This document shows, piece after piece, positions 4,381 through 64,000 of a DNA stretch of 64,000 nucleotides. The notes beneath the pieces were generated by a model, which worked only from the letters and a program-made list of their open reading frames with translations, had not been told where the DNA came from and made no database searches. A program made the translations under genes and the position numbers. This stretch comes from Bathymodiolus brooksi (taxonomy: Eukaryota; Mollusca; Bivalvia; Mytilida; Modiolidae), in NCBI GenBank assembly GCA_963680875.1, contig OY804577.1, positions 147,392,196 through 147,456,195 of the forward strand. Reading direction: 5' to 3'. Position 1 is the first letter of the stretch. Every line of letters begins with the position of its first letter.

Positions 4381-4644
<264 letters not shown>

Positions 4645-5903: not shown

Positions 5904-6772
5904 GAGATCAATAATAGAAAAATAACCCTGACCCTAACTCTGGTCTTAACCCTAACCCTAACTCTGGTCTTAACCCTAACCCTGACCCCAACTCTGGCCC
6001 TACCACTGACCCTAACTCATGAGACCAATGATAGACAAATAGCCGTAACCTTCACCCTAACCCATGAGACCAATGATAGACAAATAACCCTGACCCTAAT
6101 TCTTGAGACCAATGATAGAAAAATAACCCTGACCCTAATTCTTGAGACCAATGATAGACAAATAACCCTGACCCTAACTCATGAGACCAATGATAGACAA
6201 ATAACCCTGACCCTAATCCATGAGACCAATGATAGAAAAATAACCCTGACCCTAATTCTTGAGACCAATGATAGACAAATAACCCTGACCCTAACTCATG
6301 AGACCAATGATAAACAAATAACCCTGACCCTAAATCATGAGACCAATGATAGAAAAATAACCCTGACCCTAACCCATGAGACCAATGATAGACAAATAAC
6401 CCTGACCCTAACTCTTGAGACCAATGATAGACAAATAACCCTGACCCTAACTCATGAGACCAATGATAGACAAATAACCCTGACCCTAAATCATGAGACC
6501 AATGATAGACAAATAACCCTGACCCTAACTCATGAGACCAATGATAGACAAATAACCCTGACCCTAACTCATGAGACCAATGATAGACAAATAACCCTGA
6601 CGCTAACTCTGGCCTTAACCCTAATCATAACCCATGAGACCAATGATAGACAAATAACCCTAACCTTGACCCTAACTCTTGAGACCGATGATAGACAAAT
6701 AACCCTAACCCTGACCCTAACTCTTGAGACCAATGATAGGCAAATAGTCCTGACCCTGAACCTAAACCTTGA
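5904..6772 (+). repeat. 39-bp tandem array with telomere-like segments
   Basis: The unit holds GAGACCAATGATAGACAAAT and ACCCTGACCCTAAC, total 39 bp, with about 20 copies. The first diverged unit (GAGATCAATAATAG) starts seven bases after the exon B donor. At 5927-6010 the unit is replaced by ACCCTA/ACCCTG/CTCTGG runs that include TAACCCTAACCCTAAC, the complement of TTAGGG telomere repeat. Because 39 is divisible by 3, one frame stays open and spells a 13-residue repeat (TNDRQITLTLTHE). This sits wholly in an intron, so I treat the peptide as a by-product. Confidence 0.92.
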
Positions 6773-7345
6773 GTGTATATTTTGTCTTTGTTTAATTTTT
6801 GTTTTTTTACATTTTTATCATCTTATTTGTTGGTGTAGTGTGAACATAGTAATAGATGTTCACTTTCTTAAGTTATGGTGTATACTAATGCAATATTAAC
6901 AGAACACAAGTGGCCTTTGATTTGGCCATTGTTTGTTTATAAATGTATCTGTATTAATTGTTTAATTTATGTAGAATAAATACTATCTTTTTCACAAAGA
7001 GTTGACTGTTGACTATTAAACATGAGTGTGAATTTAAACAATGAACAGCATTGCCTTGGCAACATTATTGAGGTATATTACAATAGCAAAAGTATTAATA
7101 CCTCCGCATCATACTGTATGAATAGTCAATAGTGACGGACAAAACTCTGATAAAAAATCAAACTTGAATATGATCATCAAACATATTGTGACACATCTAC
7201 CCTTGTCTTTTTCAAACTATTTTACTCTATGCCCATCGTGAGTTCTTACCACAGCATTTTGAAGTCAGAGGCAATTTTTACTTTTATTATTAGAAATTAT
7301 CATCAAATAATAACATTGTATATCCTTGACATTGGTTTATTTTAG
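6773..7345. other. Rest of intron B-C, no gene seen
   Basis: Unique AT-rich sequence between the 39-bp array and exon C. No repeat, RNA gene or coding similarity was recognised. It ends in GGTTTATTTTAG, a plausible acceptor. Confidence 0.5.
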
Positions 7346-7373
7346 GGGAGGATTCTTTACAATGAAGCATGAG
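7346..7373 (+). CDS. Exon C, a 28-nt micro-exon
   Basis: AG at 7344-7345 precedes a 28-nt stretch ending GAG|GTAAGTG, a strong donor. Joined to the two spare bases of exon B it reads GGGFFTMKHE with no stop and ends in phase 0. The alternative AG at 7349-7350 would put a TGA in frame, so the first AG is preferred. The exon is short, but both splice sites are good and it bridges exon B to exon D in frame. The intron after it is the largest complete one in the window (about 25.2 kb). Confidence 0.62.
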
Positions 7374-7417
7374 GTAAGTGTATTAAAAAAAAACTGCATG
7401 AAATTTTAGTCAGCATT

Positions 7418-32543: not shown

Positions 32544-32621
32544 GTTACTGATGTTAGTATAGCTGTAAATAACATATACAATAATCTGGATCCATCATCA
32601 CTGGAAATTCTGATAACAGAG
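32544..32621 (+). CDS. Exon D of the unrecognised gene
   Basis: The exon is 78 nt, exactly 26 codons, in phase 0 on both sides. It reads VTDVSIAVNNIYNNLDPSSL and EILITE and ends at ACAGAG|GTAAGTTAC, a strong donor. The acceptor (TATATACTTGAAG) has a weak pyrimidine tract, so the exact 5' boundary is the least certain of the seven exons; the frame follows exon C directly. The region just downstream of the donor resembles the 48-bp satellite unit that fills the intron. Confidence 0.62.
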
Positions 32622-32679: not shown

Positions 32680-35255
32680 ACAAAAACATCTTCTGAAACA
32701 CTATTTTAACTGAGGTCAGTTACTGTGGCACAGACATCTTCTGGAACATTATTTTAACTGAGGTCAGTTACTGTGGCACAGACATCTTCTGGAACATTAT
32801 TTTATCTGAGGTTAGTTACTGTGGCACAGACATCTTCTGGAACATTATTGTAACTGAGGTCAGTTACTGTGGCACAGACATCTTCTGGAACATTATTGTA
32901 ACTGAGGTTAGTTACTGTGACACAGACATCTTCTGGAACATTATTTTAACTGAGGTCAGTTACTGTGGCACAGACATCTTCTGGAACATTATTGTAACTG
33001 AGGTCAGTTACTGTGGCACAGACATCTTCTGGAACATTATTGTAGCTGAGGTTAGTTACTGTGGCACAGACATCTTCTGGAACATTATTTTAACTGAGGT
33101 CAGTTACTGTGGCACAGACATCTTCTGGAACATTATTGTAGCTGAGGTTAGTTACTGTGGCACAGACATCTTCTGGAACATTATTTTAACTGAGGTCAGT
33201 TACTGTGGCACAGACATCTTCTGGAACATTATTGTAGCTGAGGTTAGTTACTGTGGCACAGACATCTTCTGGAACATTATTTTAACTGAGGTCAGTTACT
33301 GTGGCACAGACATCTTCTGGAACATTATTGTAGCTGAGGTCAGTTACTGTGGCACAGACATCTTCTGGAACATTATTTTAACTGAGGTCAGTTACTGTGG
33401 CACAGACATCTTCTGGAACATTATTGTAACTGAGGTCAGTTACTGTGGCACAGACATCTTCTGGAACATTATTGTAGCTGAGGTTAGTTACTGTGGCACA
33501 GACATCTTCTGGAACATTATTTTAACTGAGGTCAGTTACTGTGGCACAGACATCTTCTGGAACATTATTGTAGCTGAGGTTAGTTACTGTGGCACAGACA
33601 TCTTCTGGAACATTATTGTAACTGAGGTCAGTTATTGTGGCACAGACATCTTCTGGAACATTATTGTAACTGAGGTCAGTTACTGTGGCACAGACATCTT
33701 CTGGAACATTATTGTAACTGAGGTTAGTTATTGTGGCACAGACATCTTCTGGAACATTATTATATCTGAGATCAGTTACTGTGGCACAGACATCTTCTGG
33801 AACATTATTTTAACTGAGGTCAGTTACTGTGGCACAGATATCTTCTAGAACATTATCTTAACTGAGGTCAGTTACTGTGGCACAGACATCTTCTGGAACA
33901 TTATTTTAACTGAGGTCAGTTACTGTGGCACAGACATCTTCTGAAACATTATTTTATCTGAGGTCAGTTACTGTGGCACAGACATCTTCTGGAACATTAT
34001 TTTAACTGAGGTCAGTTATTGTGGCACAGACATCTTCTGGAACATTATTTTATCTGAGGTCAGTTACTGTGGCACAGACATCTTCTTGAACATTATTTTA
34101 ACTGAGGTCAGTTACTGTGGCACAGACATCTTCTGGAACATTATTTTATCAGGTTAGTTACTGTGGCACAGACATCTTCTGGAACATTATTTTAACTGAG
34201 GTCAGTTACTGTGGCACAGACATCTTCTGGAACATTATTTTAACTGAGGTCAGTTACTGTGGCACAGACATCTTCTGGAACATTATTGTAGCTGAGGTTA
34301 GTTACTGTGGCACAGACATCTTCTGGAACATTATTTTAACTGAGGTCAGTTACTGTGGCACAGACATCTTCTGGAACATTATTGTAGCTGAGGTCAGTTA
34401 CTGTGGCACAGACATCTTCTGGAACATTATTTTAACTGAGGTCAGTTACTGTGGCACAGACATCTTCTGGAACATTATTGTAACTGAGGTCAGTTACTGT
34501 GGCACAGACATCTTCTGGAACATTATTGTAGCTGAGGTTAGTTACTGTGGCACAGACATCTTCTGGAACATTATTTTAACTGAGGTCAGTTACTGTGGCA
34601 CAGACATCTTCTGGAACATTATTGTAGCTGAGGTTAGTTACTGTGGCACAGACATCTTCTGGAACATTATTGTAACTGAGGTCAGTTATTGTGGCACAGA
34701 CATCTTCTGGAACATTATTGTAACTGAGGTCAGTTACTGTGGCACAGACATCTTCTGGAACATTATTGTAACTGAGGTTAGTTATTGTGGCACAGACATC
34801 TTCTGGAACATTATTATATCTGAGATCAGTTACTGTGGCACAGACATCTTCTGGAACATTATTTTAACTGAGGTCAGTTACTGTGGCACAGATATCTTCT
34901 AGAACATTATCTTAACTGAGGTCAGTTACTGTGGCACAGACATCTTCTGGAACATTATTTTAACTGAGGTCAGTTACTGTGGCACAGACATCTTCTGAAA
35001 CATTATTTTATCTGAGGTCAGTTACTGTGGCACAGACATCTTCTGGAACATTATTTTAACTGAGGTCAGTTATTGTGGCACAGACATCTTCTGGAACATT
35101 ATTTTATCTGAGGTCAGTTACTGTGGCACAGACATCTTCTTGAACATTATTTTAACTGAGGTCAGTTACTGTGGCACAGACATCTTCTGGAACATTATTT
35201 TATCAGGTTAGTTACTGTGGCACAGACATCTTCTGGAACATTATTTTAACTGAGG
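32680..35255 (+). repeat. 48-bp tandem array, about 53 copies
   Basis: The unit contains GTCAGTTACTGTGGCACAGA, CATCTTCTGGAACATTA and TTTTAACTGAG, total 48 bp. Alternate forms (TTAACTGAGGTC, GTAGCTGAGGTT, TATCTGAGG) recur in order, and a block of 22 units is duplicated with a 1054-bp offset: GATATCTTCTAG at 33837 and 34891, TATCAGGTTAG at 34147 and 35201. Because 48 is divisible by 3, frames stay open for up to 261 codons (34117-34902) with a 16-residue repeat. This is a by-product. The unit start GAG-GTCAGTTAC resembles the exon D donor. Confidence 0.95.
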
Positions 35256-37070
35256 TCGTAACAGTGACACATGTTGTTACTTCTGTCAGTAACAGTGACA
35301 CATATGTCATTGCTTCTGTCAGTTACAGTGACACATATAGTGTTACTTCTGTCAGTAACAGTGACATATATTGTTACTTCTGTCAGTAAGTGACACACAT
35401 GTCATTACTTTTATCAGTAACAGTGACACACATGTCATTACTTTTGTCAATAACAGTGACATACATTGTTACTTCTGTCAGTAACTGACACATCTGTCAT
35501 TACTTCTATCAGTGAAAGTGACATATATTATTATTTCTGTCAGTAACAGTGACACATGTCATTACTTCTGTCAGTAAGTGACATACATGTCATTACTTCT
35601 GTCAGTAACTGACATATATGTCATTACTTCTGTCAGTAACAGTGACACATATATTGTTACTTCTGTCAGTAACTGACACATATTGGTACTTCTGTCAGTA
35701 GCAGTCACACACATGTCATTACTTCTGTCAGTAACAGTGACACATATGTCATTACTTCTGTCAGTAACCGTGACATATATTTCGTTACTTCTGTCAGTAA
35801 CAGTGACACATATGTCACTACCTCTGTCAGTAACAGTGACACATGTCATTACTTCTGTCAGTAACAGTAACCAATATGTCATTACTTCTGTCAGTTACAG
35901 TGACACATATATTGTTACTTGTCAGTAAGTGACATGTCATTACTTCTGTCAGTAACAGTGACAAATATATTGTTACTTCTGTTAGTAAGTGACACATGTC
36001 ATTACTTCTTTCAGTAACAGTGACACATATATTGTTACTTCTGTCAGTAGCAATTACACATATGTCATTATTTCTGTCTGTAACATTGACACATTATGTC
36101 ATTACTTCTGTCAGTAACAGTGACATATTTCATTACTTCTTTCAGTAAAAGTGACATATGTCATTACTTCTGTCAGTAACAGTGACAAATTGTCATTATT
36201 GCTGTCAATAACAGTGACACATATGTCATTACTTCTCTCAGTAGCAGTGACACATGTCATTACTTCTATCAGTAAGAGTGACATGTCGTTACTTCTGTCA
36301 GTAAAAGTGACACATTTTTTTTGTCAGTAAGTGACACATGTCATTACTTCTGTCAGTAACAGTGACACATATATTGTTGTTTCTGTCAGTAAGAGACATA
36401 TGTCATTACTTCTGTTAGTAACAGTAACACATGTCATTACTTGTCAGTAGCAGTGACACATATATTGTTACTTCTGTCACTAACTGACACATATGTCATT
36501 ACTTCTGTCAGTAGCAGTGACACATGCCATTACTTCTATCAGTAAGAGTGACATGTCGTTACTTCTGTCAGTAAAAGTGACACATTTTTTTCTGTCAGTA
36601 AGTGACACATGTCATTACTTCTGTCAGTAACAGTGACACATATATTGTTGTTTCTGTCAGTAAGAAACATATGTCATTACTTCTGTTAGTAACAGTAACA
36701 CGTGTCATTACTTGTCAGTAGCAGTGACACATATATTGTTACTTCTGTCACTAACAGTGACATGTGTCATTACTTCTGTCACTAACAGTGACACATATGT
36801 CATTACTTCTGTCAGTAACAGTGACACATTGTCATTATTTCTGTCGGTAACAGTGACACATATGTTATTACTTCTGACTGTAACATTGACACATTATGTC
36901 ATTACTTCTGTCAGTAACAGTGGCATATTTCATTACTTCAGTCAGTAACAATGACATATTCCATTACTTCTGTCAGTAACAGTGAAACATATGCCATTAC
37001 TTCTGTCAGTAACAGTGACACATATTGTTTTTTCTGTCAGTAAATCAGTAAGAGTGACACATATGTCGTT
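35256..37070 (+). repeat. Irregular ~33-bp array related to the 48-bp unit
   Basis: The unit has the form GTCATTACTTCTGTCAGTAA then CAGTGACACATAT, with many length variants (TCAGTAAGTGACACATG, a ~30-bp form, short ATATTGTTACTT forms). It starts where the 48-bp array stops and shares its core: GTCAGTAACAGTGACACA against GTCAGTTACTGTGGCACA. Larger blocks repeat, for example the run with AAAAGTGACACATTTTTTT near 36303 and 36572. Open frames of 72-103 codons on both strands come from the repeat and are not genes. Confidence 0.9.
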
Positions 37071-37329: not shown

Positions 37330-37388
37330 CAACTGTCCATGTTTGAAAGGCAATGGAGGACAATGTTAGTTACAGCAGATATGGAAAT
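37330..37388 (+). CDS. Exon E of the unrecognised gene
   Basis: This 59-nt exon between TTGATTTTTTAG and the donor GAAAT|GTAAGC reads QLSMFERQWRTMLVTADME plus two bases of a split Met codon (phase 2). It follows exon D in frame without a stop. Tryptophan, glutamine and methionine content and the good splice sites suggest genuine coding DNA. No domain recognised. Confidence 0.7.
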
Positions 37389-38732: not shown

Positions 38733-39087
38733 TAAGTACTGATAAAGACATTTGGCACTTTTGCCACAATGATTACCAATAACAACATTAAGCACTTTTG
38801 CCACAATGATTACCGATAACAACATTAAGCACTTTTGCCACAATGATTACCAATAACAACATTAAGCACTTTTGCCACAATGATTACCAATAACAACATT
38901 AAGCACTTTTGCCACAATGATTACCAATAACAACATTAAGCACTTTTGCCACAATGATTACCAATAACAACATTAAGCACTTTTGCCACAATGATTACTG
39001 ATAACAACATGTAGCACTTTTTCCACCATAAGTGCTGGTAACAACATTTAGCACTTTCGCCACAATAAGTACCGATAACGACATTTA
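38733..39087 (+). repeat. 37-bp tandem array, about 9.6 copies
   Basis: The unit contains GCACTTTTGCCACAATGATT and ACCAATAACAACATTAA; gccac recurs at 38763 and 38800, a period of 37 bp. The outer units are diverged and the centre is nearly uniform. Single diverged copies lie at 37421-37453 and 39674-39727. Minus-strand open frames of 64-69 codons here are repeat by-products. Confidence 0.93.
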
Positions 39088-40272: not shown

Positions 40273-40315
40273 GTTGAACAATTCCACAGGTTTACAAGAA
40301 GAGAAAGTGTGTGAG
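40273..40315 (+). CDS. Exon F of the unrecognised gene
   Basis: This 43-nt exon lies between TTTTCCTACAG and the donor TGTGAG|GTAATG. With the two spare bases of exon E it reads MLNNSTGLQEEKVCE and ends in phase 0. No stop, no recognised motif; NNST contains a possible N-glycosylation sequon (NNS or NST), meaningful only if the protein is secreted, for which there is no evidence. Confidence 0.68.
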
Positions 40316-44134: not shown

Positions 44135-44184
44135 GCTTTAAGGAGCTATTACAAACATGGCAAAGTAGGAAGTGAACATTCCAG
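44135..44184 (+). CDS. Exon G of the unrecognised gene
   Basis: This 50-nt exon is preceded by an excellent tract (AACCATTTTTTTCAG) and ends at TTCCAG|GTAAGA, a strong donor. It reads ALRSYYKHGKVGSEHS plus AG of a split codon (phase 2), following exon F in frame. If joined to the sequence after any 41-bp-unit acceptor, the split codon becomes AGT and the reading continues SDKQARPF, so the true next exon probably starts like that unit and lies right of the window. Basic composition; no recognised domain. Confidence 0.75.
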
Positions 44185-44774
44185 GTAAGATAGTCATTTA
44201 AGATGAAATAACACTTGTATTGTTTGGTAAGATGAAATAACACTTGTATTGTTTGGTAAGATAGTCATTTAAGATGAAATAACACTTGTATTGTTTGGTA
44301 AGATAGTCATTTAAGATGAAATAACATTTGTATTGTTTGGTAAGATAGTCATTTAAGATGAAATAACACTTGTATTGTTTGATAAGATAGTCATTTAAGG
44401 TGAAATACCACTTGTATTGTTTGGTAAGATAGTCATTTAAGATGAAATAACACTTGTATTGTTTGGTAAGATAGTCATTTAAGATGAAATAACACTTGTA
44501 TTGTTTGGTAAGATAATCATTTAAGATGAAATAACACTTGTATTGTTTGATAAGATAGTCATTTAAGATGAAATAACACTTGTATTGTTTGGTAAGATAA
44601 TCATTTAAGATGAAATAACACTTGTATTGTTTGGTAAGATAGTCATTTAAGATGAAATAACACTTGTATTGTTTGGTAAGATAGTCATTTAAGATGAAAT
44701 AACACTTGTATTTTTTGGTAAGATAGTCATTAAAGATGAAATAACACTTGTATTGTTTGGTAAGATAATCATTT
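44185..44774 (+). repeat. 42-bp donor-site array, about 14 copies
   Basis: The unit starts GTAAGATAGTCATTTAAGAT and continues GAAATAACACTTGTATTG then TTTG, total 42 bp. The first base of the first unit is the first base of the intron after exon G, so every unit carries a copy of the donor hexamer GTAAGA. The second unit is shortened (GTAAGATGAAATAAC, 29 bp); others are nearly uniform. The last unit is cut after GTAAGATAATCATTTA and runs straight into the 41-bp array. Confidence 0.95.
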
Positions 44775-47700
44775 ATATTATTATTATTTTCAGTGATAAA
44801 CAGGCCAGACCATTTATATTATTATAATTTTCAGTAATAAACAGGCCAGACCATTTGTATTATTATTATTTTCAGTGATAAACAGGCCAGACCATTTGTA
44901 TTATTATTATTTCCAGTGATAAACAGGCCAGACCATTTGTATTATTATTATTTTCAGTGTTAAATAGGCCAGACCATTTATATTATTATTATTTTCAGTG
45001 ATAAACAGGCCAGACCATTTGTATTATTATTATTTTCAGTGATAAACAGGCCAGACCATTTATATTATTATTTTTTTCAGTGATAAACAGGCCAGACCAT
45101 TTGTATTATTATTATTTTCAGTGATAAACAGGCCAGACCATTTGTATTATTATTATTTTCAGTAATAAACAGGCCAGACCATTTGTATTATTATTATTTT
45201 CAGTGATAAACAGGCCAGACCATTTATATTATTATTTTCAGTGATAAACAGGCCAAACCATTTATATTATTATTATTTTCAGTGATAAACAGGCCAGACC
45301 ATTTGTATTATTATTATTTTCTGTGATAAACAGGCCAAACCATTTATATTATTATTATTTTCAGTGATAAACAGGCCAGAACATTTGTATTATTATTATT
45401 TTCAGTAATAAACAGGCCAGACCATTTGTATTATTATTATTTTCAGTGATAAACAGGCTAGACCATTTATATTATTATTTTCAGTGATAAGCAGGCCAAA
45501 CCATTTATATTATTATTATTTTCAGTGATAAACAGGCCAGACCATTTGTATTATTATTATTTTCAGTGATAAACAGGCCAGACCATTTGTATTATTATTA
45601 TTTTCAGTGATAAACAGGCCAGACCATTTATATTATTATTTTCAGTGATAAACAGGCCAAACCATTTATATTATTATTATTTTCAGTGATAAACAGGCCA
45701 GACCATTTGTATTATTATTATTTTCAGTGATATACAGGGGAGACCATTTGTATTATTATTATTTTCAGTGATAAACAGACCAGACCATTTGTATTATTAT
45801 TATTTTCAGTAATAAACAGGCCAGACCATTTGTATTATTATTATTTTCAGTGATAAACAGGCTAGACCATTTATATTATTATTTTCAGTGATAAGCAGGC
45901 CAAACCATTTATATTATTATTATTTTCAGTGATAAACAGGCCAGACCATTTGTATTATCATTATTTTCAGTGATAAACAGGCCAAACCATTTGTATTATT
46001 ATTATGTTCAGTGATAAACAGGCCAGACCATTTGTATTATTATTATTTTCAGTGATATACAGGGGAGACCATTTGTATTATTATTATTTTCAGTGATAAA
46101 CAGACCAGACCATTTGTATTATTATTATTTTCAGTAATAAACAGGCCAGACCATTTGTATTATTATTATTTTCAGTGATAAACAGGCTAGACCATTTAAA
46201 TTATTATTTTCAGTGATAAGCAGGCCAAACCATTTATATTATTATTATTTTCAGTGATAAACAGACCAGACCATTTATATTATTATTATTTTCAGTGATA
46301 AACAGGCCAGACCATTTGTATTATTATTATTTTCAGTGATAAACAGGGCAGACCATTTGTATTATTATTATTTTCAGTGATAAACATGCCAGACCATTTG
46401 TATTATTATTACTTTCAGTGATAAACATGCCAGACCATTTGTATTATTATTATTTTCAGTGATAAACAGGCCAGACCATTTCTATTATTATTATTTTCAG
46501 TGATAAACAGGCCAGACCATTTATATTATTATTATTTTCAGTGATAAACAGGCCAGACCATTTGTATTATTATTATTTTCAGTGATATACAGATCAAACC
46601 ATTTGTATTATTATTATTTTCAGTGATAAACAGGCCAGACCATTTGTATTATTATTATTTTCAGTGATAAACAGGCCAGACCATTTGTATTATTATTATT
46701 TTCAGTGATAAACAGGCTAGACCATTTGTATTATTATTATTTTCAGTGATAAACAGGCCAGACCATTTGTATTATTATTATTTTCAGTGATAAACAGGCC
46801 AGACCATTTGTATTATTATTATTTTTAGTAATAAACATGCCAGACCATTTGTATTATTATTATTTTCAGTGATAAACAGGCCAGACCATTTGTATTATTA
46901 TTATTTTCAGTGATAAACAGGGCAGACCATTTGTATTATTAATATTTTCAGTGATAAACACGCCAGACCATTTGTATTATTATTATTTTCAGTGATAAAC
47001 AGGCCAGACCATTTGTATTATTATTATTTTCAATGATAAACGGGCCAGACCATTTGTATTATTATTATTTTCAGTGATAAACAGGCCAGACCATTTGTAT
47101 TATTATTATTTTCAGTGATAAACAAGCCAGACCATTTGTATTATTATTATTTTCAGTGATAAACAGGCTAGACCATTTATATTATTATTTTCAGTGATAA
47201 ACAGGCCAGACCATTTGTATTATTATTATTTTCAGTGATAAACAGGCTAGACCATTTATATTATTATTTTCAGTGATAAACAGGCCAGACCATTTGTATT
47301 ATTATTATTTTCTGTGATATACAGGCCAAACCATTTATATTATTATTATTTTCAGTGATAAACAGACCAGACCATTTATATTATTATTATTTTCAGTGAT
47401 AAACAGGCCAGACCATTTGTATTATTATTATTTTCAGTGATAAACAGGGCAGACCATTTGTATTATTATTATTTTCAGTGATAAACACGCCAGACCATTT
47501 GTATTATTATTATTTTCAGTGATAAACAGGCCAGACCATTTGTATTATTATTATTTTCAGTGATAAACAGGCTAGACCATTTGTATTATTATTATTTTCA
47601 GTGATAAACAGGCCAGACCATTTGTATTATTATTATTTTTAGTGATAAACAGGCCAGACCATTTGTATTATTATTATTTTCAGTGATATACAGATCCAAC

Positions 47701-50700
47701 CATTTGTATTATTATTATTTTCAGTGATAAACAGGCCAGACCATTTATATTATCATTATTTTCAGTGATAAACAGGGCAGACCATTTGTATTATTATTAT
47801 TTTCAGTGATATACAGGCCAGACCATTTGTATTATTATTATTTTCAGTGATAAACACGCCAGACCATTTGTATTATTATTACTTTCAGTGATAAACAAGC
47901 CAGACCAGACAGGCCAGACCATTTGTATTATTATTATTTTCAGTGATAAACAGGCTAGACCATTTATATTATTATTTTCAGTGATAAACAGGCCAGACCA
48001 TTTGTATTATTATTATTTTCAGTGATAAACAGGCTAGACCATTTATATTATTATTTTCAGTGATAAACAGGCCAGACCATTTGTATTATTATTATTTTCA
48101 GTGATATACAGGCCAGACCATTTGTATTATTATTATTTTCAGTGATAAACAGGCCAGACCATTTGTATTATTATTATTTTTAGTGATAAACAGGCCAGAC
48201 CATTTGTATTATTATTATTTTCAGTGATATACAGATCCAACCATTTGTATTATTATTATTTTCAGTGATATACAGGCCAGACCATTTATATTATTATTAT
48301 TTTCAGTGATATACACATCCAACCATTTGTATTATTATTATTTTCAGTGATAAACAGGCCAAACCATTTATATTATTATTATTTTCAGTGATAAACAGGC
48401 CAGACCATTTGTATTATTATTATTTTCAGTGATATACAGACCAGACCATTTGTATTACTATTATTTTCAGTGATAAACAGGCCAGACCATTTATATTATT
48501 ATTTTCAGTGATAAACAGGCCAAACCATTTATATTATTATTATTTTCAGTGATAAACAGGCCAGACCATTTGTATTATTATTATTTTCAGTGATATACAG
48601 GGCAGACCATTTGTATTATTATTATTTTCAGTGATAAACAGACCAGACCATTTGTATTATTACTATTTTCAGTAATAAACAGGCCAGACCATTTGTATTA
48701 TTATTATTTTCAGTGATAAACAGGCTAGACCATTTATATTATTATTTTCAGTGATAAGCAGGCGAAACCATTTATATTATTATTATTTTCAGTGATAAAC
48801 AGGCCAGACCATTTGTATTATCATTATTTTCAGTGATAAACAGGCCAAACCATTTGTATTATTATTATTTTCAGTGATAAACAGGCCAGACCATTTGTAT
48901 TATTATTATTTTCAGTGATAAACAGGCCAGACCATTTGTATTATTATTATTTTCAGTGATAAACAGGCTAGACCATTTATATTATTATTTTCAGTGATAA
49001 ACAAGCCAGACCATTTGTATTATTATTATTTTCAGCGATAAACAGGCCAGACCATTTGTATTATTATTATTTTCAGTGATAAACAGGCCAGACCATTTGT
49101 ATTATTATTATTTTCAGTGATATACAGATCCAACCATTTGTATTATTATTATTTTCAGTGATATACAGGCCAGACCATTTATATTATTATTATTTTCAGT
49201 GATATACAGATCCAACCATTTGTATTATTATTATTTTCAGTGATATACAGGCCAGACCATTTGTATTATTATTATTTTCAGTGATAAACAGGCCAGACCA
49301 TTTATATTATTATTATTTTCAGTGATATACATGCCAGACCATTTGTATTATTATTATTTTCTGTGATAAACAGGCCAAACAATTTATATTATTATTATTT
49401 TCAGTGATAAACAGGCCAGACCATTTATATTATTATTATTTTCAGTGATAAACATGCCAGACCATTTGTATTATTATTATTTTCAGTGATAAACAGGGCA
49501 GACCATTTGTATTATTATTATTTTCAGTGATAAACACGCCAGACCATTTGTATTATTATTACTTTCAGTGATAAACCGGCCAGACCATTTGTATTATTAT
49601 TATTTTCAGTGATAAACAGGCCAGACCATTTCTATTATTATTATTTTCAGTGATAAACAGGCCAGACCATTTATATTATTATTATTTTCAGTGATAAACA
49701 GGCCAGACCATTTGTATTATTATTATTTTCAGTGATATACAGATCAAACCATTTGTATTATTATTATTTTCAGTGATAAACAGGCCAGACCATTTGTATT
49801 ATTATTATTTTCAGTGATAAACAGGCCAAACCATTTGTATTATTATTATTTTCAGTAATAAACATGCCAGACCATTTGTATTATTATTATTTTCAGTGAT
49901 AAACAGGCCAAACCATTTGTATTATTATTATTTTCAGTAATAAACATGCCAGACCATTTGTATTATTATTATTTAAGTGATAAACAGGCCAGACCATTTG
50001 TATTATTATTATTTTCAGTGATAAACAGGCTAGACCATTTGTATTATTATTATTTTCAGTGATAAACAGGCCAGACCATTTGTATTATTATTATTTTCAG
50101 TGATAAACAGGCCAGACCATTTGTATTATTATTATTTTCAGTGATAAACAGGCCAGACCATTTGTATTATTATTATTTTCAGTGATAAACAGGCTAGACC
50201 ATTTATATTATTATTTTCAGTGATATACAGGCCAGACCATTTGTATTATTATTATTTTCAGTGATAAACAGGCTAGACCATTTATATTATTATTTTCAAT
50301 ATAAACAGGCCAGACCATTTGTATTATTATTATTTTCAGTGATATACAGGCCAGACCATTTGTATTATTATTATTTTCAGTGATGAACAGGCCAGACCAT
50401 TTGTATTATTATTATTTTTAGTGATAAACAGGCCAGACCATTTGTATTATTATTATTTTCAGTGATATACAGAACCAACCATTTGTATTATTATTATTTT
50501 CAGTGATATACAGGCCAGACCATTTATATTATTATTATTTTCAGTGATATACAGATCCAACCATTTGTATTATTATTATTTTCAGTGATATACAGGCCAG
50601 ACCATTTGTATTATTATTATTTTCAGTGATAAACAGGCCAGACCATTTATATTATTATTATTTTCAGTGATATACAGACCAGACCATTTGTATTATTATT

Positions 50701-53700
50701 ATTTTCTGTGATATACAGGCCAAACCATTTATATTATTATTATTTTCAGTGATAAACAGGCCAAACCATTTATATTATTATTATTTTCAGTGATATACAG
50801 GCCAGACCATTTATATTATTATTATTTTCAGTGATAAACAGGCCAGACAATTTGTATTATTATTATTTTTAGTGATAAACAGGCCAAACCATTTGTATTA
50901 TTATTATTTTCAGTGATAAACAGGCCAGACCATTTGTATTATTATTATTTTCAGTGATAAACAGGCCAGACCATTTATATTATTATTATTTTCAGTGATA
51001 AACAGGCCAGACCATTTGTAATATTATTATTTTCAGTGATATACAGATCAAACCATTTGTATTATTATTATTTTCAGTGATAAACAGGCCAGACCATTTG
51101 TATTATTATTATTTTCAGTGATAAACAGGCCAGACCATTTGTATTATTATTATTTTCAGTGATAAACAGGACAGACCATTTGTATTATTATTATTTTCAG
51201 TGATAAACAGGCTAGACCATTTATATTATTATTTTCAGTGATAAACAGGCCAGACCATTTGTATTATTATTATTTTCAGTGATAAACAGGGTAGACCATT
51301 TGTAATATTATTATTTTCAGTGATAAACATGCCAGACCATTTGTATTATTATTATTTTCAGTGATAAACAGGCCAGACCATTTGTATTATTATTATTTTC
51401 AGTGATAAACAGGCTAGACCATTTGTATTATTATTATTTTCAGTGATAAACAGGCCAGACCATTTGTATTATTATTATTTTTAGTGATAAACAGGCCAGA
51501 CCATTTGTATTATTATTATTTTCAGTGATATACAGGCCAGACCATTTATATTATTATTATTTTCAGTGATAAACAGGCCAGACAATTTGTATTATTATTA
51601 TTTTTAGTGATAAACAGGCCAAACCATTTGTATTATTATTATTTTCAGTGATAAACAGGCCAGACCATTTGTATTATTATTATTTTCAGTGATAAACAGG
51701 CCAGACCATTTATATTATTATTATTTTCAGTGATAAACAGGCCAGACCATTTGTAATATTATTATTTTCAGTGATATACAGATCAAACCATTTGTATTAT
51801 TATTATTTTCAGTGATAAACAGGCCAGACCATTTGTATTATTATTATTTTCAGTGATAAACAGGCCAGACCATTTGTATTATTATTATTTTCAGTGATAA
51901 ACAGGACAGACCATTTGTATTATTATTATTTTCAGTGATAAACAGGCTAGACCATTTATATTATTATTTTCAGTGATAAGCAGGCCAAACCATTTATATT
52001 ATTATTATTTTCAGTGATAAACAGGCCAGACCATTTGTATTATTATTATTTTCAGTGATAAACAGGCCAGACCATTTGTATTATTATTATTTTCAGTGAT
52101 AAACAGGCCAGACCATTTGTATTATTATTTTCAGTGATAAACAGGCCAAACCATTTATATTATTATTATTTTCAGTGATAAACAGGCCAGACCATTTGTA
52201 TTATTATTATTTTCAGTGATATACAGGCCAGACCATTTGTATTATTATTATTTTCAGTGATAAACAGACCAGACCATTTGTATTATTATTATTTTCAGTA
52301 ATAAACAGGCCAGACCATTTGTATTATTATTATTTTCAGTGATAAACAGGCTAGACCATTTATATTATTATTTTCAGTGATAAGCAGGCCAAACCATTTA
52401 TATTATTATTATTTTCAGTGATAAACAGGCCAGACCATTTGTATTATTATTATTTTCAGTGATAAACAGGCCAAACCATTTGTATTATTATTATTTTCAG
52501 TGATAAACAGGCCAGACCATTTGTATTATTATTATTTTCAGTGATAAACAGGCTAGACCATTTATATTATTATTTTCAGTGATAAACAGGCCAGACCATT
52601 TGTATTATTATTATTTTCAGTGATATACAGGCCAGACCATTTGTATTATTATTATTTTCAGTGATAAACAGGCCAGACCATTTGTATTATTATTATTTTC
52701 AGTGATAAACATGCCAGACCATTTGTATTATTATTATTTTCAGTGATAAACAGGCCAGACCATTTGTATTATTATTATTTTCAGTGATAAACAGGCTAGA
52801 CCATTTGTATTATTATTATTTTCAGTGATAAACAGGCCAGACCATTTGTATTATTATTATTTTTAGTGATAAACAGGCCAGACCATTTGTATTATTATTA
52901 TTTTCAGTGATATACAGGCCAGACCATTTATATTATTATTATTTTCAGTGATAAACAGGCCAGACAATTTGTATTATTATTATTTTTAGTGATAAACAGG
53001 ACAAACCATTTGTATTATTATTATTTTCAGTGATAAACAGGCCAGACCATTTGTATTATTATTATTTTCAGTGATAAACAGGCCAGACCATTTATATTAT
53101 TATTATTTTCAGTGATAAACAGGCCAGACCATTTGTAATATTATTATTTTCAGTGATATACAGATCAAACCATTTGTATTATTATTATTTTCAGTGATAA
53201 ACAGGCCAGACCATTTGTATTATTATTATTTTCAGTGATAAACAGGCCAGACCATTTGTATTATTATTATTTTCAGTGATAAACAGGACAGACCATTTGT
53301 ATTATTATTATTTTCAGTGATAAACAGGCTAGACCATTTATATTATTATTTTCAGTGATAAGCAGGCCAAACCATTTATATTATTATTATTTTCAGTGAT
53401 AAACAGGCCAGACCATTTGTATTATTATTATTTTCAGTGATAAACAGGCCAGACCATTTGTATTATTATTATTTTCAGTGATAAACAGGCCAGACCATTT
53501 GTATTATTATTTTCAGTGATAAACAGGCCAAACCATTTATATTATTATTATTTTCAGTGATAAACAGGCCAGACCATTTGTATTATTATTATTTTCAGTG
53601 ATATACAGGCCAGACCATTTGTATTATTATTATTTTCAGTGATAAACAGACCAGACCATTTGTATTATTATTATTTTCAGTAATAAACAGGCCAGACCAT

Positions 53701-56700
53701 TTGTATTATTATTATTTTCAGTGATAAACAGGCTAGACCATTTATATTATTATTTTCAGTGATAAGCAGGCCAAACCATTTATATTATTATTATTTTCAG
53801 TGATAAACAGGCCAGACCATTTGTATTATTATTATTTTCATTGATAAACAGGCCAAACCATTTGTATTATTATTATTTTCAGTAATATACAGGCCAGACC
53901 ATTTGTATTATTATTATTTTCAGTGATAAACAGGCCAGACCATTTATATTATTATTATTTTCAGTGATAAACAGGACAGACCATTTGTATTATTATTATT
54001 TTCAGTGATAAACAGGCTAGACCATTTATATTATTATTTTCAGTGATAAGCAGGCCAAACCATTTATATTATTATTATTTTCAGTGATAAACAGGCCAGA
54101 CCATTTGTATTATTATTATTTTCAGTGATAAACAGGCCAGACCATTTGTATTATTATTATTTTCAGTGATAAACAGGCCAGACCATTTAAATTATTATTT
54201 TCAGTGATAAACAGGCCAAACCATCTATATTATTATTATTTTCAGTGATAAACAGGCCAGACCATTTGTATTATTATTATTTTCAGTGATAAACAGGCCA
54301 GACCATTTGTATTATTATTATTTTTAGTGATAAACAGGCCAGACCATTTGTATTATTATTATTTTCAGTGATAAACAGGGCAGACTATTTGTATTATTAT
54401 TATTTTCAGTGATAAACACGCCAGACCATTTGTATTATTATTACGTTCAGTGATAAACAAGCCAGACCATTTGTATTATTATTATTTTCAGTGATAAACA
54501 GGCCAGACCATTTGTATTATTATTATTTTCAGTGATAAACAGGCTAGACCAATTATATTATTATTTTCAGTGATAAACAGACCAGACCATTTGTATTATT
54601 ATTATTTTCAGTGATAAACAGGCTAGACCATTTATATTATTATTTTCAGTGATAAACAGGCCAGACCATTTGTATTATTATTATTTTCAGTGATATACAG
54701 GGCAGACCATTTGTATTATTATTATTTTCAGTGATAAACAGACCAGACCATTTGTATTATTATTATTTTCAGTGATATACAGGCCAGACCATTTGTATTA
54801 TTATTATTTTCAGTGATAAACAGGCCAGACCATTTGTATTATTATTATTTTTAGTGATAAACAGGCCAGACCATTTGTATTATTATTATTTTCAGTGATA
54901 TACAGATCCAACCATTTGTATTATTATTATTTTCAGTGATATACAGGCCAGACCATTTATATTATTATTATTTTCAGTGATATACAGGGCAGACCATTTG
55001 TATTATTATTATTTTCAGTGATAAACAGACCAGACCATTTGTATTATTATTATTTTCAGTAATAAACAGGCCAGACCATTTGTATTATTATTATTTTCAG
55101 TGATAAACAGGCTAGACCATTTATATTATTATTTTCAGTGATAAGCAGGCGAAACCATTTATATTATTATTATTTTCAGTGATAAACAGGCCAGACCATT
55201 TGTATTATCATTATTTTCAATGATAAACAGGCCAAACCATTTGTATTATTATTATTTTCAGTGATAAACAGGCCAGACCATTTGTATTATTATTATTTTC
55301 AGTGATAAACAGGCAGACCATTTGTATTATTATTATTTTCAGTGATAAACAGGCTAGACCATTTATATTATTATTTTCAGTGATAAACAAGCCAGACCAT
55401 TTGTATTATTATTATTTTCAGTGATAAACAGGCCAGACCATTTGTATTATTATTATTTTCAGTGATATACAGATCCAACCATTTGTATTATTATTATTTT
55501 CAGTGATATACAGGCCAGACCATTTGTATTATTATTATTTTCAGTGATAAACAGGCCAGACCATTTATATTATTATTATTTTCAGTGATATACATGCCAG
55601 ACCATTTGTATTATTATTATTTTCTGTGATAAACAGGCCAAACAATTTATATTATTATTATTTTCAGTGATAAACATGCCAGACCATTTGTATTATTATT
55701 ATTTTCAGTGATAAACAGGGCAGACCATTTGTATTATTATTATTTTCAGTGATAAACACGCCAGACCATTTGTATTATTATTACTTTCAGTGATAAACAG
55801 GCCAGACCATTTGTATTATTATTATTTTCAGTGATAAACAGGCCAGACCATTTCTAATATTATTATTTTCAGTGATAAACAGGCCAGACCATTTATATTA
55901 TTATTATTTTCAGTGATAAACAGGCCAGACCATTTGTATTATTATTATTTTCAGTGATAAACAGGCCAAGCCATTTGTATTATTATTATTTTCAGTAATA
56001 AACATGCCAGACCATTCGTATTATTTTTATTTTCAGTGATAAACAGGCCAGACCATTTATATTATTATTTTAAGTGATAAACAGGCCACACTATTTGTAT
56101 TATTATTATTTTCAGTGATAAACAGGCTAGACCATTTGTATTATTATTATTTTCAGTGATAAACAGGCCAGACCATTTGTATTATTATTATTTTCAGTGA
56201 TAAACAGGCCAGACCATTTGTATTATTATTATTTTCAGTGATAAACAGGCCAGACCATTTGTATTATTATTATTTTCAGTGATAAACAGGCTAGACCATT
56301 TATATTATTATTTTCAGTGATAAGCAGGCCAGACCATTTGTATTATTATTATTTTCAGTGATAAACAGGCTAGACCATTTATATTATTATTTTCAATATA
56401 AACAGGGTAGACCATTTATATTATTATTTTCAGTGATATACAGAACCAACCATTTGTATTATTATTATTTTCAGTGATATACAGGCCAGACCATTTGTAT
56501 TATTATTATTTTCAGTGATAAACAGGCCAGACCATTTGTATTATTATTATTTTTAGTGATAAACAGGCCAGACCATTTGTATTATTATTATTTTCAGTGA
56601 TATACAGATCCAACCATTTGTATTATTATTATTTTCAGTGATATACAGGCCAGACCATTTATATTATTATTATTTTCAGTGATATACAGGGCAGACCATT

Positions 56701-59700
56701 TGTATTATTATTATTTTCAGTGATAAACAGACCAGACCATTTGTATTATTATTATTTTCAGTAATAAACAGGCCAGACCATTTGTATTATTATTATTTTC
56801 AGTGATAAACAGGCTAGACCATTTATATTATTATTTTCAGTGATAAGCAGGCGAAACCATTTATATTATTATTATTTTCAGTGATAAACAGGCCAGACCA
56901 TTTGTATTATCATTATTTTCAATGATAAACAGGCCAAACCATTTGTATTATTATTATTTTCAGTGATAAACAGGCCAGACCATTTGTATTATTATTATTT
57001 TCAGTGATAAACAGGCAGACCATTTGTATTATTATTATTTTCAGTGATAAACAGGCTAGACCATTTATATTATTATTTTCAGTGATAAACAAGCCAGACC
57101 ATTTGTATTATTATTATTTTCAGTGATAAACAGGCCAGACCATTTGTATTATTATTATTTTCAGTGATATACAGATCCAACCATTTGTATTATTATTATT
57201 TTCAGTGATATACAGGCCAGACCATTTGTATTATTATTATTTTCAGTGATAAACAGGCCAGACCATTTTTATTATTATTATTTTCAGTGATATACATGCC
57301 AGACCATTTGTATTATTATTATTTTCTGTGATAAACAGGCCAAACAATTTATATTATTATTATTTTCAGTGATAAACAGGCCAGACCATTTATATTATTA
57401 TTATTTTCAGTGATAAACATGCCAGACCATTTGTATTATTATTATTTTCAGTGATAAACAGGGCAGACCATTTGTATTATTATTATTTTCAGTGATAAAC
57501 ACGCCAGACCATTTGTATTATTATTACTTTCAGTGATAAACAGGCCAGACCATTTGTATTATTATTATTTTCAGTGATAAACAGGCCAGACCATTTCTAA
57601 TATTATTATTTTCAGTGATAAACAGGCCAGACCATTTATATTATTATTATTTTCAGTGATAAACAGGCCAGACCATTTGTATTATTATTATTTTCAGTGA
57701 TAAACAGGCCAAACCATTTGTATTATTATTATTTTCAGTAATAAACATGCCAGACCATTCGTATTATTTTTATTTTCAGTGATAAACAGGCCAGACCATT
57801 TATATTATTATTTTAAGTGATAAACAGGCCACACTATTTGTATTATTATTATTTTCAGTGATAAACAGGCTAGACCATTTGTATTATTATTATTTTCAGT
57901 GATAAACAGGCCAGACCATTTGTATTATTATTATTTTCAGTGATAAACAGGCCAGACCATTTGTATTATTATTATTTTCAGTGATAAACAGGCCAGACCA
58001 TTTGTATTATTATTATTTTCAGTGATAAACAGGCTAGACCATTTATATTATTATTTTCAGTGATAAGCAGGCCAGACCATTTGTATTATTATTATTTTCA
58101 GTGATAAACAGGCTAGACCATTTATATTATTATTTTCAATATAAACAGGCTAGACCATTTATATTATTATTTTCAGTGATATACAGAACCAACCATTTGT
58201 ATTATTATTATTTTCAGTGATATACAGGCCAGACCATTTATATTATTATTATTTTCAGTGATATACAGATCCAACCATTTGTATTATTATTATTTTCAGT
58301 GATATACAGGCCAGACCATTTGTATTATTATTATTTTCAGTGATATACAGACCAGACCATTTGTATTATTATTATTTTCTGTGATATACAGGCCAAACCA
58401 TTTATATTATTATTATTTTCAGTGATAAACAGGCCAGACCATTTATATTATTATTATTTTCAGTGATAAACAGGCCAGACCATTTGTATTATTATTATTT
58501 TCAGTGATAAACAGGGTAGACCATTTGTAATATTATTATTTTCAGTGATAAACATGCCAGAACATTTGTATTATTATTATTTTCAGTGATACACAGGCCA
58601 GACCATTTGTATTATTATTATTTTCAGTGATAAACAGGCTAGACCATTTGTATTATTATTATTTTCAGTGATAAACAGGCCAGACCATTTGTATTATTAT
58701 TATTTTTAGTGATAAACAGGCCAGACCATTTGTATTATTATTATTTTCAGTGATATACAGATCCAACCATTTGTATTATTATTATTTTCAGTGATATACA
58801 GGCCAGACCATTTATATTATTATTATTTTCAGTGATATACAGATCGAACCATTTGTATTATTATTATTTTCAGTGATATACAGGCCAGACCATTTGTATT
58901 ATTATTATTTTCAGTGATAAACAGGCCAGACCATTTATATTATTATTATTTTCAGTGATATACAGGCCAGACCATTTGTATTATTATTGTTTTCTGTGAT
59001 AAACAGGCCAAACCATTTATATTATTATTATTTTCAGTGATAAACAGGACAAACCATTTATATTATTATTATTTTCAGTGATAAACAGGCCAGACCATTT
59101 AAATTATTATTTTCAGTGATAAACAGGCCAAACCATTTATATTATTATTATTTTCAGTGATAAACAGGCCAGACCATTTGTATTATTATTATTTTCAGTG
59201 ATATACAGGCCAGACCATTTGTATTATTATTATTTTCAGTGATAAACAGACCAGACCATTTGTATTATTATTATTTTCAGTAATAAACAGGCCAGACCAT
59301 TTGTATTATTATTATTTTCAGTGATAAACAGGCTAGACCATTTATATTATTATTTTCAGTGATAAGCAGGCCAAACCATTTATATTATTATTATTTTCAG
59401 TGATAAACAGGCCAGACCATTTGTATTATTATTATTTTCAGTGATAAACAGGCCAAGCCATTTGTATTATTATTATTTTCAGTGATATACAGGCCAGACC
59501 ATTTGTATTATTATTATTTTCAGTGATAAACAGGCTAGACCATTTATATTATTATTTTCAGTGATAAACAGGCCAGAACATTTGTGTTATTATTATTTTC
59601 TGTGATATACAGGCCAGACCATTTATATTATTATTATTTTCAGTGATATACAGATCTAATCATTTGTATTATTATTATTTTCAGTGATATACAGGCCAGA

Positions 59701-62700
59701 CCATTTGTATTATTATTATTTTCAGTGATATACAGGCCAGACCATTTGTATTATTATTATTTTCAGTGATAAACAGGCCAGACCATTTATATTATTATTA
59801 TTTTCAGTGATATACAGGCCAGACCATTTGTATTATTATTATTTTCTGTGATAAACAGGCCAAACCATTTATATTATTATTATTTTCAGTGATAAACAGG
59901 CCAGACCATTTATATTATTATTATTTTCAGTGATAAACAGGCCAGACCCTTTGTATTATTATTATTTTCAGTGATAAACAGGGCAGACCATTTGTATTAT
60001 TATTATTTTCAGTGATAAACATGCCAGACCATTTGTATTATTATTATTTTCAGTGATAAACAGGCCAGACCATTTGTATTATTATTATTTTCAGTGATAA
60101 ACAGGCCAGACCATTTGTATTATTATTATTTTCAGTGATAAACAGGCCAAACCATTTATATTATTATTATTTTCAGTGATAAACAGGCCAAACCATTTAT
60201 ATTATTATTATTTTCAGCAATAAACAGGCCAGAACATTTATATTATTATTATTTTCAGTGATAAACAGGCCAAACCATTTATATTATTATTATTTTCAGT
60301 GATAAACAGGCCAGACCATTTGTATTATTATTATTTTCAGTGATATACAGGCCAGACCATTTGTATTATTATTATTTTCAGTGATAAACAGGCCAGACCA
60401 TTTATATTATTATTATTTTCAGTGATATACAGATGAAACCATTTGTATTATTATTATTTTCAGTGATATACAGGCCAGACCATTTGTATTATTATTATTT
60501 TCTGTGATAAACAGGACAGACCATTTATATTATTATTATTTTCAATGATATACAGAACAAACCATTTGTATTATTATTATTTTCAGTGATAAACAGGCCA
60601 GACCATTTGTATTATTATTATTTTCAGTGATATACAGGCCAGACCATTTGTATTATTATTATTTTCAGTGATAAACAGGCCAGACCATTTATATTATTAT
60701 TATTTTCAGTGATATACAGGCCAGACCATTTGTATTATTATTATTTTCTGTGATAAACAGGCCAAACCATTTATATTATTATTATTTTCAGTGATAAACA
60801 GGCCAGACCATTTATATTATTATTATTTTCAGTGATAAACATGCCAGACCCTTTGTATTATTATTATTTTCAGTGATAAACAGGGCAGACCATTTGTATT
60901 ATTATTATTTTCAGTGATAAAAATGCCAGACCATTTGTATTATTATTATTTTCAGTGATAAACAGGCCAGACCATTTGTATTATTATTATTTTCAGTGAT
61001 AAACAGGCCAGACCATTTGTATTATTATTATTTTCAGTGATAAACAGGCCAAACCATTTATATTATTATTATTTTCAGTGATAAACAGGCCAAACCATTT
61101 ATATTATTATTATTTTCAGCAATAAACAGGCCAGAACATTTATATTATTATTATTTTCAGTGATAAACAGGCCAAACCATTTATATTATTATTATTTTCA
61201 GTGATAAACAGGCCAGACCATTTGTATTATTATTATTTTCAGTGATAAACAGGCCAGACCATTTGTATTATTATTATTTTCAGTGATATACAGGCCAGAC
61301 CATTTGTATTATTATTATTTTCAGTGATAAACAGGCCAGACCATTTATATTATTATTATTTTCAGTGATATACAGATGAAACCATTTGTATTATTATTAT
61401 TTTCAGTGATATACAGGCCAGACCATTTGTATTATTATTATTTTCTGTGATAAACAGGACAGACCATTTATATTATTATTATTTTCAATGATATACAGAA
61501 CAAACCATTTGTATTATTATTATTTTCAGTGATATACAGGCCAGACCATTTGTATTATTATTATTTTCAGTGATATACAGGCCAGACCATTTGTATTATT
61601 ATTATTTTCAGTGATAAACAGGCCAGACCATTTATATTATTATTATTTTCAGTGATATACAGGCCAGATCATTTGTATTATTATTATTTTCAGTGATAAA
61701 CAGGCCAAACCATTTGTATTATTATTATTTTCAGTGATAAACAGGCCAGACCATTTGTATTATTATTATTTTCAGTGATAAACAGGCTAGACCATTTATA
61801 TTATTATTTTCAGTGATAAATAGGCCAGAACATTTGTGTTATTATTATTTTCAGTGATATACAGGCCAGACCATTTGTATTATTATTATTTTCAGTAATA
61901 AACAGGCCAGACCATTTGTATTATTATTATTTTTAGTGATAAACAGGCCAGACCATTTGTATTATTATTATTTTCAGTGATATACAGATCCAACCATTTG
62001 TATTATTATTATTTTCAGTGATATACAGGCCAGACCATTTATATTATTATTATTTTCAGTGATATACAGATCCAATCATTTGTATTATTATTATTTTCAG
62101 TGATATACAGGCCAGACCATTTGTATTATTATTATTTTCAGTGATAAACAGGCCAGACCATTTATATTATTATTATTTTCAGTGATATACAGACCAGACC
62201 ATTTGTATTATTATTATTTTCTGTGATAAACAGGCCAAACCATTTATATTATTATTATTTTCAGTGATAAACAGGCCAGACCATTTATATTATTATTATT
62301 TTCAGTGATAAACAGGCCAGACCCTTTGTATTATTATTATTTTCAGTGATAAACAGGGCAGACCATTTGTATTATTATTATTTTCAGTGATAAACATGCC
62401 AGACCATTTGTATTATTATTATTTTCAGTGATAAACAGGCCAGTCCATTTGTATTATTATTATTTTCAGTGATAAACAGGCCAGACCATTTGTATTATTA
62501 TTATTTTCAGTGATAAACAGGCCAGACCATTTGTATTATTATTTTCAGTGATAAACAGGCCAAACCATTTATATTATTATTATTTTCAGTGATAAACAGG
62601 CCAGACCATTTGTATTATTATTATTTTCAGTGATAAACAGGCCAGACCATTTGTATTATTATTATTTTCAGTGATATACAGGCCAGACCATTTGTATTAT

Positions 62701-64000
62701 TATTATTTTCAGTGATAAACAGGCCAAACCATTTATATTATTATTATTTTCAGCAATAAACAGGCCAGACCATTTATATTATTATTATTTTCAGTGATAA
62801 ACAGGCCAAACCATTTATATTATTATTATTTTCAGTGATAAACAGGCCAGACCATTTGTATTATTATTATTTTCAGTGATAAACAGGCCAGACCATTTGT
62901 ATTATTATTATTTTCAGTGATATACAGGCCAGACCATTTGTATTATTATTATTTTCAGTGATAAACAGGCCAGACCATTTATATTATTATTATTTTCAGT
63001 GATATACAGATGAAACCATTTGTATTATTATTATTTTCAGTGATATACAGGCCAGACCATTTGTATTATTATTATTTTCTGTGATAAACAGGACAGACCA
63101 TTTATATTATTATTATTTTCAATGATATACAGATCAAACCATTTGTATTATTATTATTTTCAGTGATAAACAGGCCAGACCATTTGTATTATTATTATTT
63201 TCAGTGATAAACAGGCCAAACCATTTGTATTATTATTATTTTCAGTAATAAACAGGCCAGACCATTTGTATTATTATTATTTTCAGTGATAAACAGGCCA
63301 AACCATTTGTATTATTATTATTTTCAGTAATAAACAGGCCAGACCATTTGTATTATTATTATTTTCAGTGATAAACAGGCCAGACCATTTGTATTATTAT
63401 TATTTTCAGTGATAAACAGGCCAAACCATTTATATTATTATTATTTTTAGTCATAAACAGGCCAAACCATTTATATTATTATTATTTTCAGTAATAAACA
63501 GGCCAAACCATTTATATTATTATTATTTTCAGTGATAAACAGGCCAGACCATTTGTATTATTATTATTTTCAGTGATATACAGGCCAGACCATTTGTATT
63601 ATTATTATTTTCTGTGATAAACAGGCCAGACCATTTGTATTATTATTATTTTTAGTGATAAACAGGCCAGACCATTTGTATTATTATTATTTTCAGTGAT
63701 ATACAGATCCAACCATTTGTATTATTATTATTTTCAGTGATATACAGGCCAGACCATTTATATTATTATTGTTGTCAGTGATAAACAGGCCAGACCATTT
63801 GTATTATTATTATTTTCAGTGATATACAGGCCAGACCATTTGTATTATTATTATTTTCAGTGATAAACAGGCCACACCATTTATATTATTATTTTCAGTG
63901 ATAAACAGGCCAAACCATTTATATTATTATTGTTTTCAATGATAAACAGGCCAGACCATTTGTATTATTATTATTTTCAGTGATATACAGGGCAGACCAT
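44775..64000 (+). repeat. 41-bp acceptor-site array, about 470 copies, runs off the window
   Basis: The unit is GTATTATTATTATTTTCAG (19 bp) followed by TGATAAACAGGCCAGACCAT and TT. The first part is a textbook 3' splice site. Common variants are ATATTATTA for GTATTATTA, a 38-bp form with one ATT fewer, GATATACAG for GATAAACAG, GCTAGACC, GCCAAACC and AGATCCAACC. Variants recur in ordered blocks: ACCATTCGTATTATTTTTAT near 56013 and 57755, and GCCACACTATTTG near 56086 and 57828, both offset by 1742 bp. Since 41 is not divisible by 3 and TGA begins the second part, no frame stays open for long and no protein is encoded. Confidence 0.96.
44794..44815 (+). other. First candidate exon-H-like 5' end (repeat copy)
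   Basis: Directly after the first array acceptor (AG at 44792-44793), TGATAAACAGGCCAGACCAT plus TT would extend exon G as S-DKQARPF. In this copy the next codons are ATA TTA TTA TAA, so splicing here would end the protein almost at once. I take it as a repeat copy of the start of the real exon, which should lie beyond 64000. Confidence 0.45.

Follow-up and report, generated by a model that had tools for sequence, protein, structure and literature searches.

Results

The window analysed here, a stretch of 64,000 nucleotides (C3:147392196-147456195), is located some 3.0 Mb away from its contig's end and carries seven exons on the plus strand: exon A (4462..4558), the first in the window, with an open frame, AG/GT borders and a match to Mytilus, followed by exons B (5818..5896), C (7346..7373), D (32544..32621), E (37330..37388), F (40273..40315) and G (44135..44184), the last of which ends in ...GSEHS in phase 2. 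Joined and translated, these exons give a single open frame, which matched the DAAF9_N domain (116.5 bits, 1.3e-33) and the DAAF9 domain (39.5 bits, 3.8e-10) of Pfam, each against a curated cut-off of 27 bits, as well as the solved Shulin protein (1.3e-10). The top full-length relatives, among the 120 of 238 matches listed, were dynein axonemal assembly factor 9 of Mytilus californianus (83%) and M. edulis (80%), and the first exons showed about 80% identity to Mytilus. Judged by sequence similarity, the host gene is DNAAF9, a cilia gene, nearest to that of Mytilus, and the animal is likely a mussel or closely related to one. Using stretches downstream of the window, we extended the model to 27 exons (A to AA), which correspond to Mytilus residues 134-956 and span 305.6 kb; exons before A and after AA fall outside it. 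All 26 introns of the model have GT-AG borders and its 2468 nt contain zero stops, and on these features the locus looks alive.

The intron between exons G and H is occupied at its acceptor end by a tandem array of a 41-bp unit on the plus strand (44770..64000 in the window), which was identified by TRF and by alignment and runs past the window to end in exon H. TRF counted 472.1 copies with 92% matches inside the window, and wraparound alignment recovered 471 complete units with a mean identity to the consensus of 0.96 and a mean pairwise identity of 0.93. The first-pass annotation had described a 41-bp array of about 470 copies; the array is real and this number is right for the window, but the full array is nearly twice as long, continuing unbroken up to 79595 (window numbering) as a single TRF row of 854.3 copies. 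These copy numbers were taken from one genome assembly. It is nevertheless highly improbable that misassembly has inflated a short array to these numbers, given that the units differ from each other at the pairwise identity stated above, that exons G and H anchor the array, and that the same contig contains further junction arrays built of different units. We also searched the species' own genome (2.0 Gb in 136 contigs) for GTATTATTATTATTTTCAG and found 483 plus-strand occurrences and 1 on the opposite strand; the 483 were located in 124 kb around intron G>H, 269 of them in the window.

Each unit combines the last 24 nt of the intron, CATTTATATTATTATTATTTTCAG, in which G often replaces A after CATTT, with 17 nt from the start of the following exon, TGATAAACAGGCCAGAC, which supports the earlier proposal that the junction of the next exon had been duplicated in tandem. 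The AG was intact in 445 of the 472 acceptors in the window (CAG 426, TAG 16, AAG 3; 27 broken) and in 801 of the 854 units of the full array, and within the window the AG column was no better kept than the other columns of the unit. Translated in the frame that exon G sets, 216 of the 445 intact window acceptors gave exactly SDKQARPF as their first eight residues. A full 3′ splice site had been ascribed to every unit. We found the tract and the AG, but in the consensus unit the interval from 12 to 60 nt upstream of the AG contains no YTNAY branch site and only a single TNAY (TGAT, 38 nt), indicating that the 3′ splice site is demonstrated for tract and AG only and that the true acceptor would be weakened as much as the decoys. 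The two GT sites of the consensus unit score 3/9 to the U1 consensus, and no GT site in the window part of the array exceeds 5/9. A recursive splice site requires AG followed by GT. The AG here is followed by TGATAA, which, together with the poor GT sites, makes it extremely unlikely that recursive splicing takes out the intron piecewise through the repeated acceptors, even though the intron is very long and the acceptors are evenly spaced.

To place the exon part of the unit in the protein, 82 unit translations were slid along the full length (1165 residues) of Mytilus edulis DNAAF9. The best match (DKQARPFVLL / DRQTRPFVLF, residue 280) scored 39 with a runner-up of 25 and is the ungapped continuation of exon G; none of 1000 dinucleotide shuffles reached this score, the highest being 32. 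Against M. californianus the unit scored 36 with a runner-up of 25, while in a scan of five more distant orthologues the continuation of exon G was not the best unit match. The first-pass annotation had also anticipated that a last exon, starting with TGATAAACAGGCC and followed by open coding sequence, would lie to the right of the window. Such an exon was found: the final array copy, at 79566, continues as TGATAAACAGGCCAGACCATTTGTATTATTTGGTACT... and SDKQARPFVLFGTNTRKSVLEAV... to a gtgagt donor. The last acceptor is thus followed by TGATAAACAGGCCAGACCATTTGTATTATTTGGTACTAACACAAGG, which is exon H (79566-79704 in window numbering), and its peptide SDKQARPFVLFGTNTRKSVLEAVRSGETTLNTDIMKSGVDGEIPKFM corresponds to VDRQTRPFVLFGTNTKKTVMESVRTGETTVNTPIMKAGVDGDIPKLM in Mytilus edulis. 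The array therefore ends in a real exon (SDKQARPFVLFGTNTRK... versus Mytilus VDRQTRPFVLFGTNTKK...).

At the other end of the intron, a donor-end repeat of a 42-bp unit beginning GTAAGA occupies 44185..44769 on the plus strand. It holds 13 GTAAGAT sites in 585 nt, counted from the first base of the intron at 44185, the last by 44760, and the first of them is the true donor. The true donor (CAG/GTAAGA) scores 8/9 to the U1 consensus and its 12 copies (TTG/GTAAGA) score 6/9. The acceptor array adjoins this repeat directly at 44770, so that the 35,381 nt of intron G>H consist of 585 nt of donor repeats and 34,796 nt of acceptor repeats and of nothing else.

We then joined exon G in silico to each of the 801 intact acceptors. 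The frame stayed open through the 27 modelled exons for one of them, the last, and the remaining 800 met a stop after 3-59 residues (median 28). On this model, the suggestion that only the last copy gives a full protein held up, and the splicing machinery likely must find one acceptor among about 800 look-alikes. In ten introns whose donors are repeated, we counted 1078 decoys by an 8+6-base rule; the donor repeats of G>H and X>Y fail this rule and are not part of that number. The frame was kept open to the end of the model by one of these decoys, in P>Q. The decoys nearest the true acceptor of exon H lie at 79484, 79443 and 79361, i.e. 82 nt and more upstream, and exon definition alone might not separate them from it.

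Junction copies were further counted across the whole gene with 24-mers made of 12 exon and 12 intron bases, allowing at most 4 mismatches within the junction's own intron. The acceptor of G>H had 844 copies, followed by the donors of L>M (290), R>S (245), W>X (141), T>U (112), V>W (68, with 1 at its acceptor), J>K (31), K>L (13) and P>Q (2), and Y>Z had 16 copies of its acceptor and 3 of its donor. The other 40 of the 52 junctions had no copies in their own introns, and no junction had any in the gene's other introns or in letter shuffles (40 per intron). Alignment of the array units supported D>E, the G>H acceptor, J>K, K>L, P>Q, R>S, T>U, V>W, W>X, X>Y and both ends of Y>Z, with 0 of 1000 letter shuffles for each. 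Taken together with L>M, these alignments give junction-spanning arrays in 12 of the 26 introns and at 13 junctions (11 donors and 2 acceptors), compared with 1.28 expected under a crude random-placement model. The donor arrays of X>Y and Y>Z have only about 3 copies. The D>E array (32686..35271, plus strand) has 54 copies of a 48-bp unit, which aligned, with changes and gaps, to the donor junction of exon D over 21 nt of exon and 24 nt of intron; its score of 31 was reached by 0 of 10000 dinucleotide shuffles and 0 of 503 other non-array windows, and no exact-type junction 24-mer copy is left in it. As read from this alignment, the array is a set of older, diverged copies of the donor junction.

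Two further arrays match intron sequence close to a donor. The 39-bp unit of the array after exon B (6006..6773, plus strand) matched intron nt 8-44 (score 59, 0 of 200 dinucleotide shuffles), indicating that it was seeded just inside the donor and not across it, and the 37-bp unit at 38748..39085 (plus strand) matched intron nt 33-61 after exon E (score 43, 0 of 200 shuffles). No junction array was counted in the other 14 introns, several of which carry large arrays of other origin or of none assigned. Junction-derived arrays, including the donor repeats of G>H, make up 94,963 of the 303,116 intron bases, and all arrays in the locus fill 232,692 of its 305,584 bp. So large an array content would fit a DNAAF9 copy that is dying or dispensable, in which arrays grow unopposed while a working copy lies elsewhere; the 2468 nt without a stop, the GT-AG borders of 26 of 26 introns and the identity of about 80% to Mytilus over the first exons make this very unlikely.

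Several other repeats were observed in and near the window. The intron after exon H contains a 42-bp array of about 869 copies (81833-126238, window numbering) and two further blocks of the same unit, whose length is a whole number of codons; no junction match was counted for this array. A 22-bp array (7414-13527, 280 copies) has the unit CATAGAAACTAATTCTCTCTCA, each with a pyrimidine tract, TAG and a motif (CTAAT) that resembles a branch site, and it gave no junction match either. The segment 31426-32320, with the ends CAGTGCTCCCTCGGTCTATCGCC and, inverted, GGCGGTTTAACGAGGGAGCACTGTA, looks by eye like a transposon with terminal inverted repeats. Two look-alike tandem repeats of 165-335 bp (GGACCCTATGGGAAAAATGTTT...) lie at 1-3927 and 43078-43767, and the first extends upstream through the stretch L014.

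Dynein heavy chain genes on other chromosomes were sampled at places picked from a Pfam search before any sequence inspection, with one stretch taken whole (L035, on C13) and one in part (L036, on C5). At L035:6209-6850 we found nine copies of TTCTATTTGTAG/GTTTCTCGTCAT, the true one included, 57-76 bp apart, and the last copy continues into the exon VSRHLTKLFDSMAKLMFKKDDRGSD, a layout as in the DNAAF9 acceptor array. The dynein heavy chain region of L036 contains one 32-bp array of 25 copies (731-1533). One acceptor array was thus found among the two stretches, with a junction comparison that covers L035 only. This shows that junction arrays are not private to DNAAF9; two stretches give no rate.

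Discussion

From the sequence, the array in intron G>H is best described as the acceptor end of DNAAF9 together with the first 17 exon bases, present 854 times, and we consider it probable that the cell uses the last copy only, since exon definition would pair this copy with the donor at the far end of the exon. In all junction arrays the correct copy lies at the complete exon, last in acceptor arrays and first in donor arrays, and exon definition would favour copies in this position. Exon-proximal sites would then win, and most mis-spliced transcripts would meet a stop and be removed by nonsense-mediated decay. Alternatively, the decoys may often be used, with the first-transcribed acceptors capturing exon G, most transcripts being destroyed, and the array holding back or delaying the output of DNAAF9. 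The AG is kept in 801 of 854 units, the true acceptor and the decoys are near-identical, and wrong joins reach a stop within 59 residues, all of which would suit this alternative; however, the 27-exon frame is intact, no plausible donor follows the decoys in the window part of the array, and in amphioxus, where comparable duplications are called mirages, RT-PCR was reported to suggest that regular splicing is undisturbed by them (PMC3087553). We therefore regard frequent use of the decoys as unlikely.

As to the origin of the arrays, we propose that each began as a duplication across its junction. For G>H, a likely trigger lies beside the last unit, where CATTTATATTATT at the intron end and CATTTGTATTATT in exon H are alike at 12 of 13 positions and 41 bp apart. 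A slip or unequal exchange between these near-repeats would copy precisely the 41 bp that contain the acceptor, and slippage or unequal exchange would then expand the array. The differing base varies among the 471 window units (G in 329, A in 96), as expected if the ends of both origins were mixed.

A wider reading is that introns here grow from their ends genome-wide, with junctions as hot spots of tandem duplication, introns turning into splice-site satellites, and a spliceosome that reads exons from the outside in. This is conceivable, although we hold it with more doubt than confidence. If true, the spliceosome would cope in each intron with hundreds of decoys that are nearly perfect, and this would be a genome-wide mode of intron growth. 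In DNAAF9 the sequence shows how an intron can grow to 35 kb from copies of its own end, as the exon attests, and that junctions were copied at 13 places in the gene. The wider reading would also provide a natural experiment on splice-site choice in which sequence cannot tell right from wrong: the usual explanation of such choice is site strength, whereas here mainly position can decide. With hundreds of near-identical sites, DNAAF9 RNA would show directly which rule governs, be it exon definition, first-come choice or scanning. Gene finders and read aligners likely stumble on so many near-identical junctions, which makes these arrays a trap for annotation.

Parts of this arrangement recall known systems. 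The Drosophila Y dynein genes, which serve axonemal motility, have giant satellite-filled introns, and DNAAF9 shares with them very long satellite introns in an axonemal motility gene; the Drosophila satellites are not known to be copied from the junctions of the introns that hold them. Introner-like elements are single sequences spread across many genes. Here, all 483 plus-strand genome matches lie in the 124 kb around intron G>H and the junction 24-mers have no copies in the gene's other introns, both of which argue against such an element. Intron gain by tandem duplication does not fit the 41-bp unit, whose GT sites score 3/9 to the U1 consensus. In the potato RdRp gene, an intron was gained by tandem duplication across an intron-exon boundary (PMC4974935); there, as in DNAAF9, a boundary-crossing duplication copies the boundary signals, but a new intron arises in potato whereas in DNAAF9 the unit lacks a good donor and the old intron grows. 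Among mollusc studies, the available text on an abalone intronic minisatellite mentions no junction (PMC6905558), and the titles and abstract starts listed contained no junction arrays in molluscs, a partial coverage that does not prove absence.

One of the two closest known systems is the VNTR in intron 18 of human ABCA7, which begins with the exon 18 donor, ranges from 12 to about 427 units and has a length linked to altered splicing (PMC5954066). One-unit shifts to the second donor were detected there in human RNA, indicating that such decoys can be used. In both systems the repeated unit opens with the GT donor of the exon itself, but the ABCA7 unit is 25 bp long and confined to the donor side of one intron, whereas DNAAF9 also has arrays at acceptors, where every unit includes exon sequence.

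The other is the amphioxus mirages, described in two reports as minisatellite-like tandem duplications over intron/exon boundaries in BflGb6, BflGb9, Adh3, PGBD5 and troponin C (PMC3087553, PMC3902484). As in amphioxus, the DNAAF9 arrays are boundary duplications on the donor or acceptor side, with AG/GT signals in the units and the authentic boundary on the exon side: the unit at G>H spans 24 nt of intron and 17 nt of exon with a real exon following, boundaries are spanned at 13 junctions, and splice signals are present as AG in 801 of 854 units and as 1078 decoy donors in ten introns. The haplotypes of the globin gene BflGb6 have 6 and 3 mirage units (PMC3087553), compared with 854 at one acceptor and up to 292 at donors in DNAAF9. 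Unlike the mirages described there, the DNAAF9 arrays occupy both ends of one intron with no unique sequence between them and reach 12 of 26 introns, in what is likely a mollusc. Altogether, the DNAAF9 arrays are a variant of the amphioxus mirage kind, and they differ from the mirages and from the ABCA7 VNTR in the copy number at an acceptor, the gene-wide spread, and an intron built only of its two ends.
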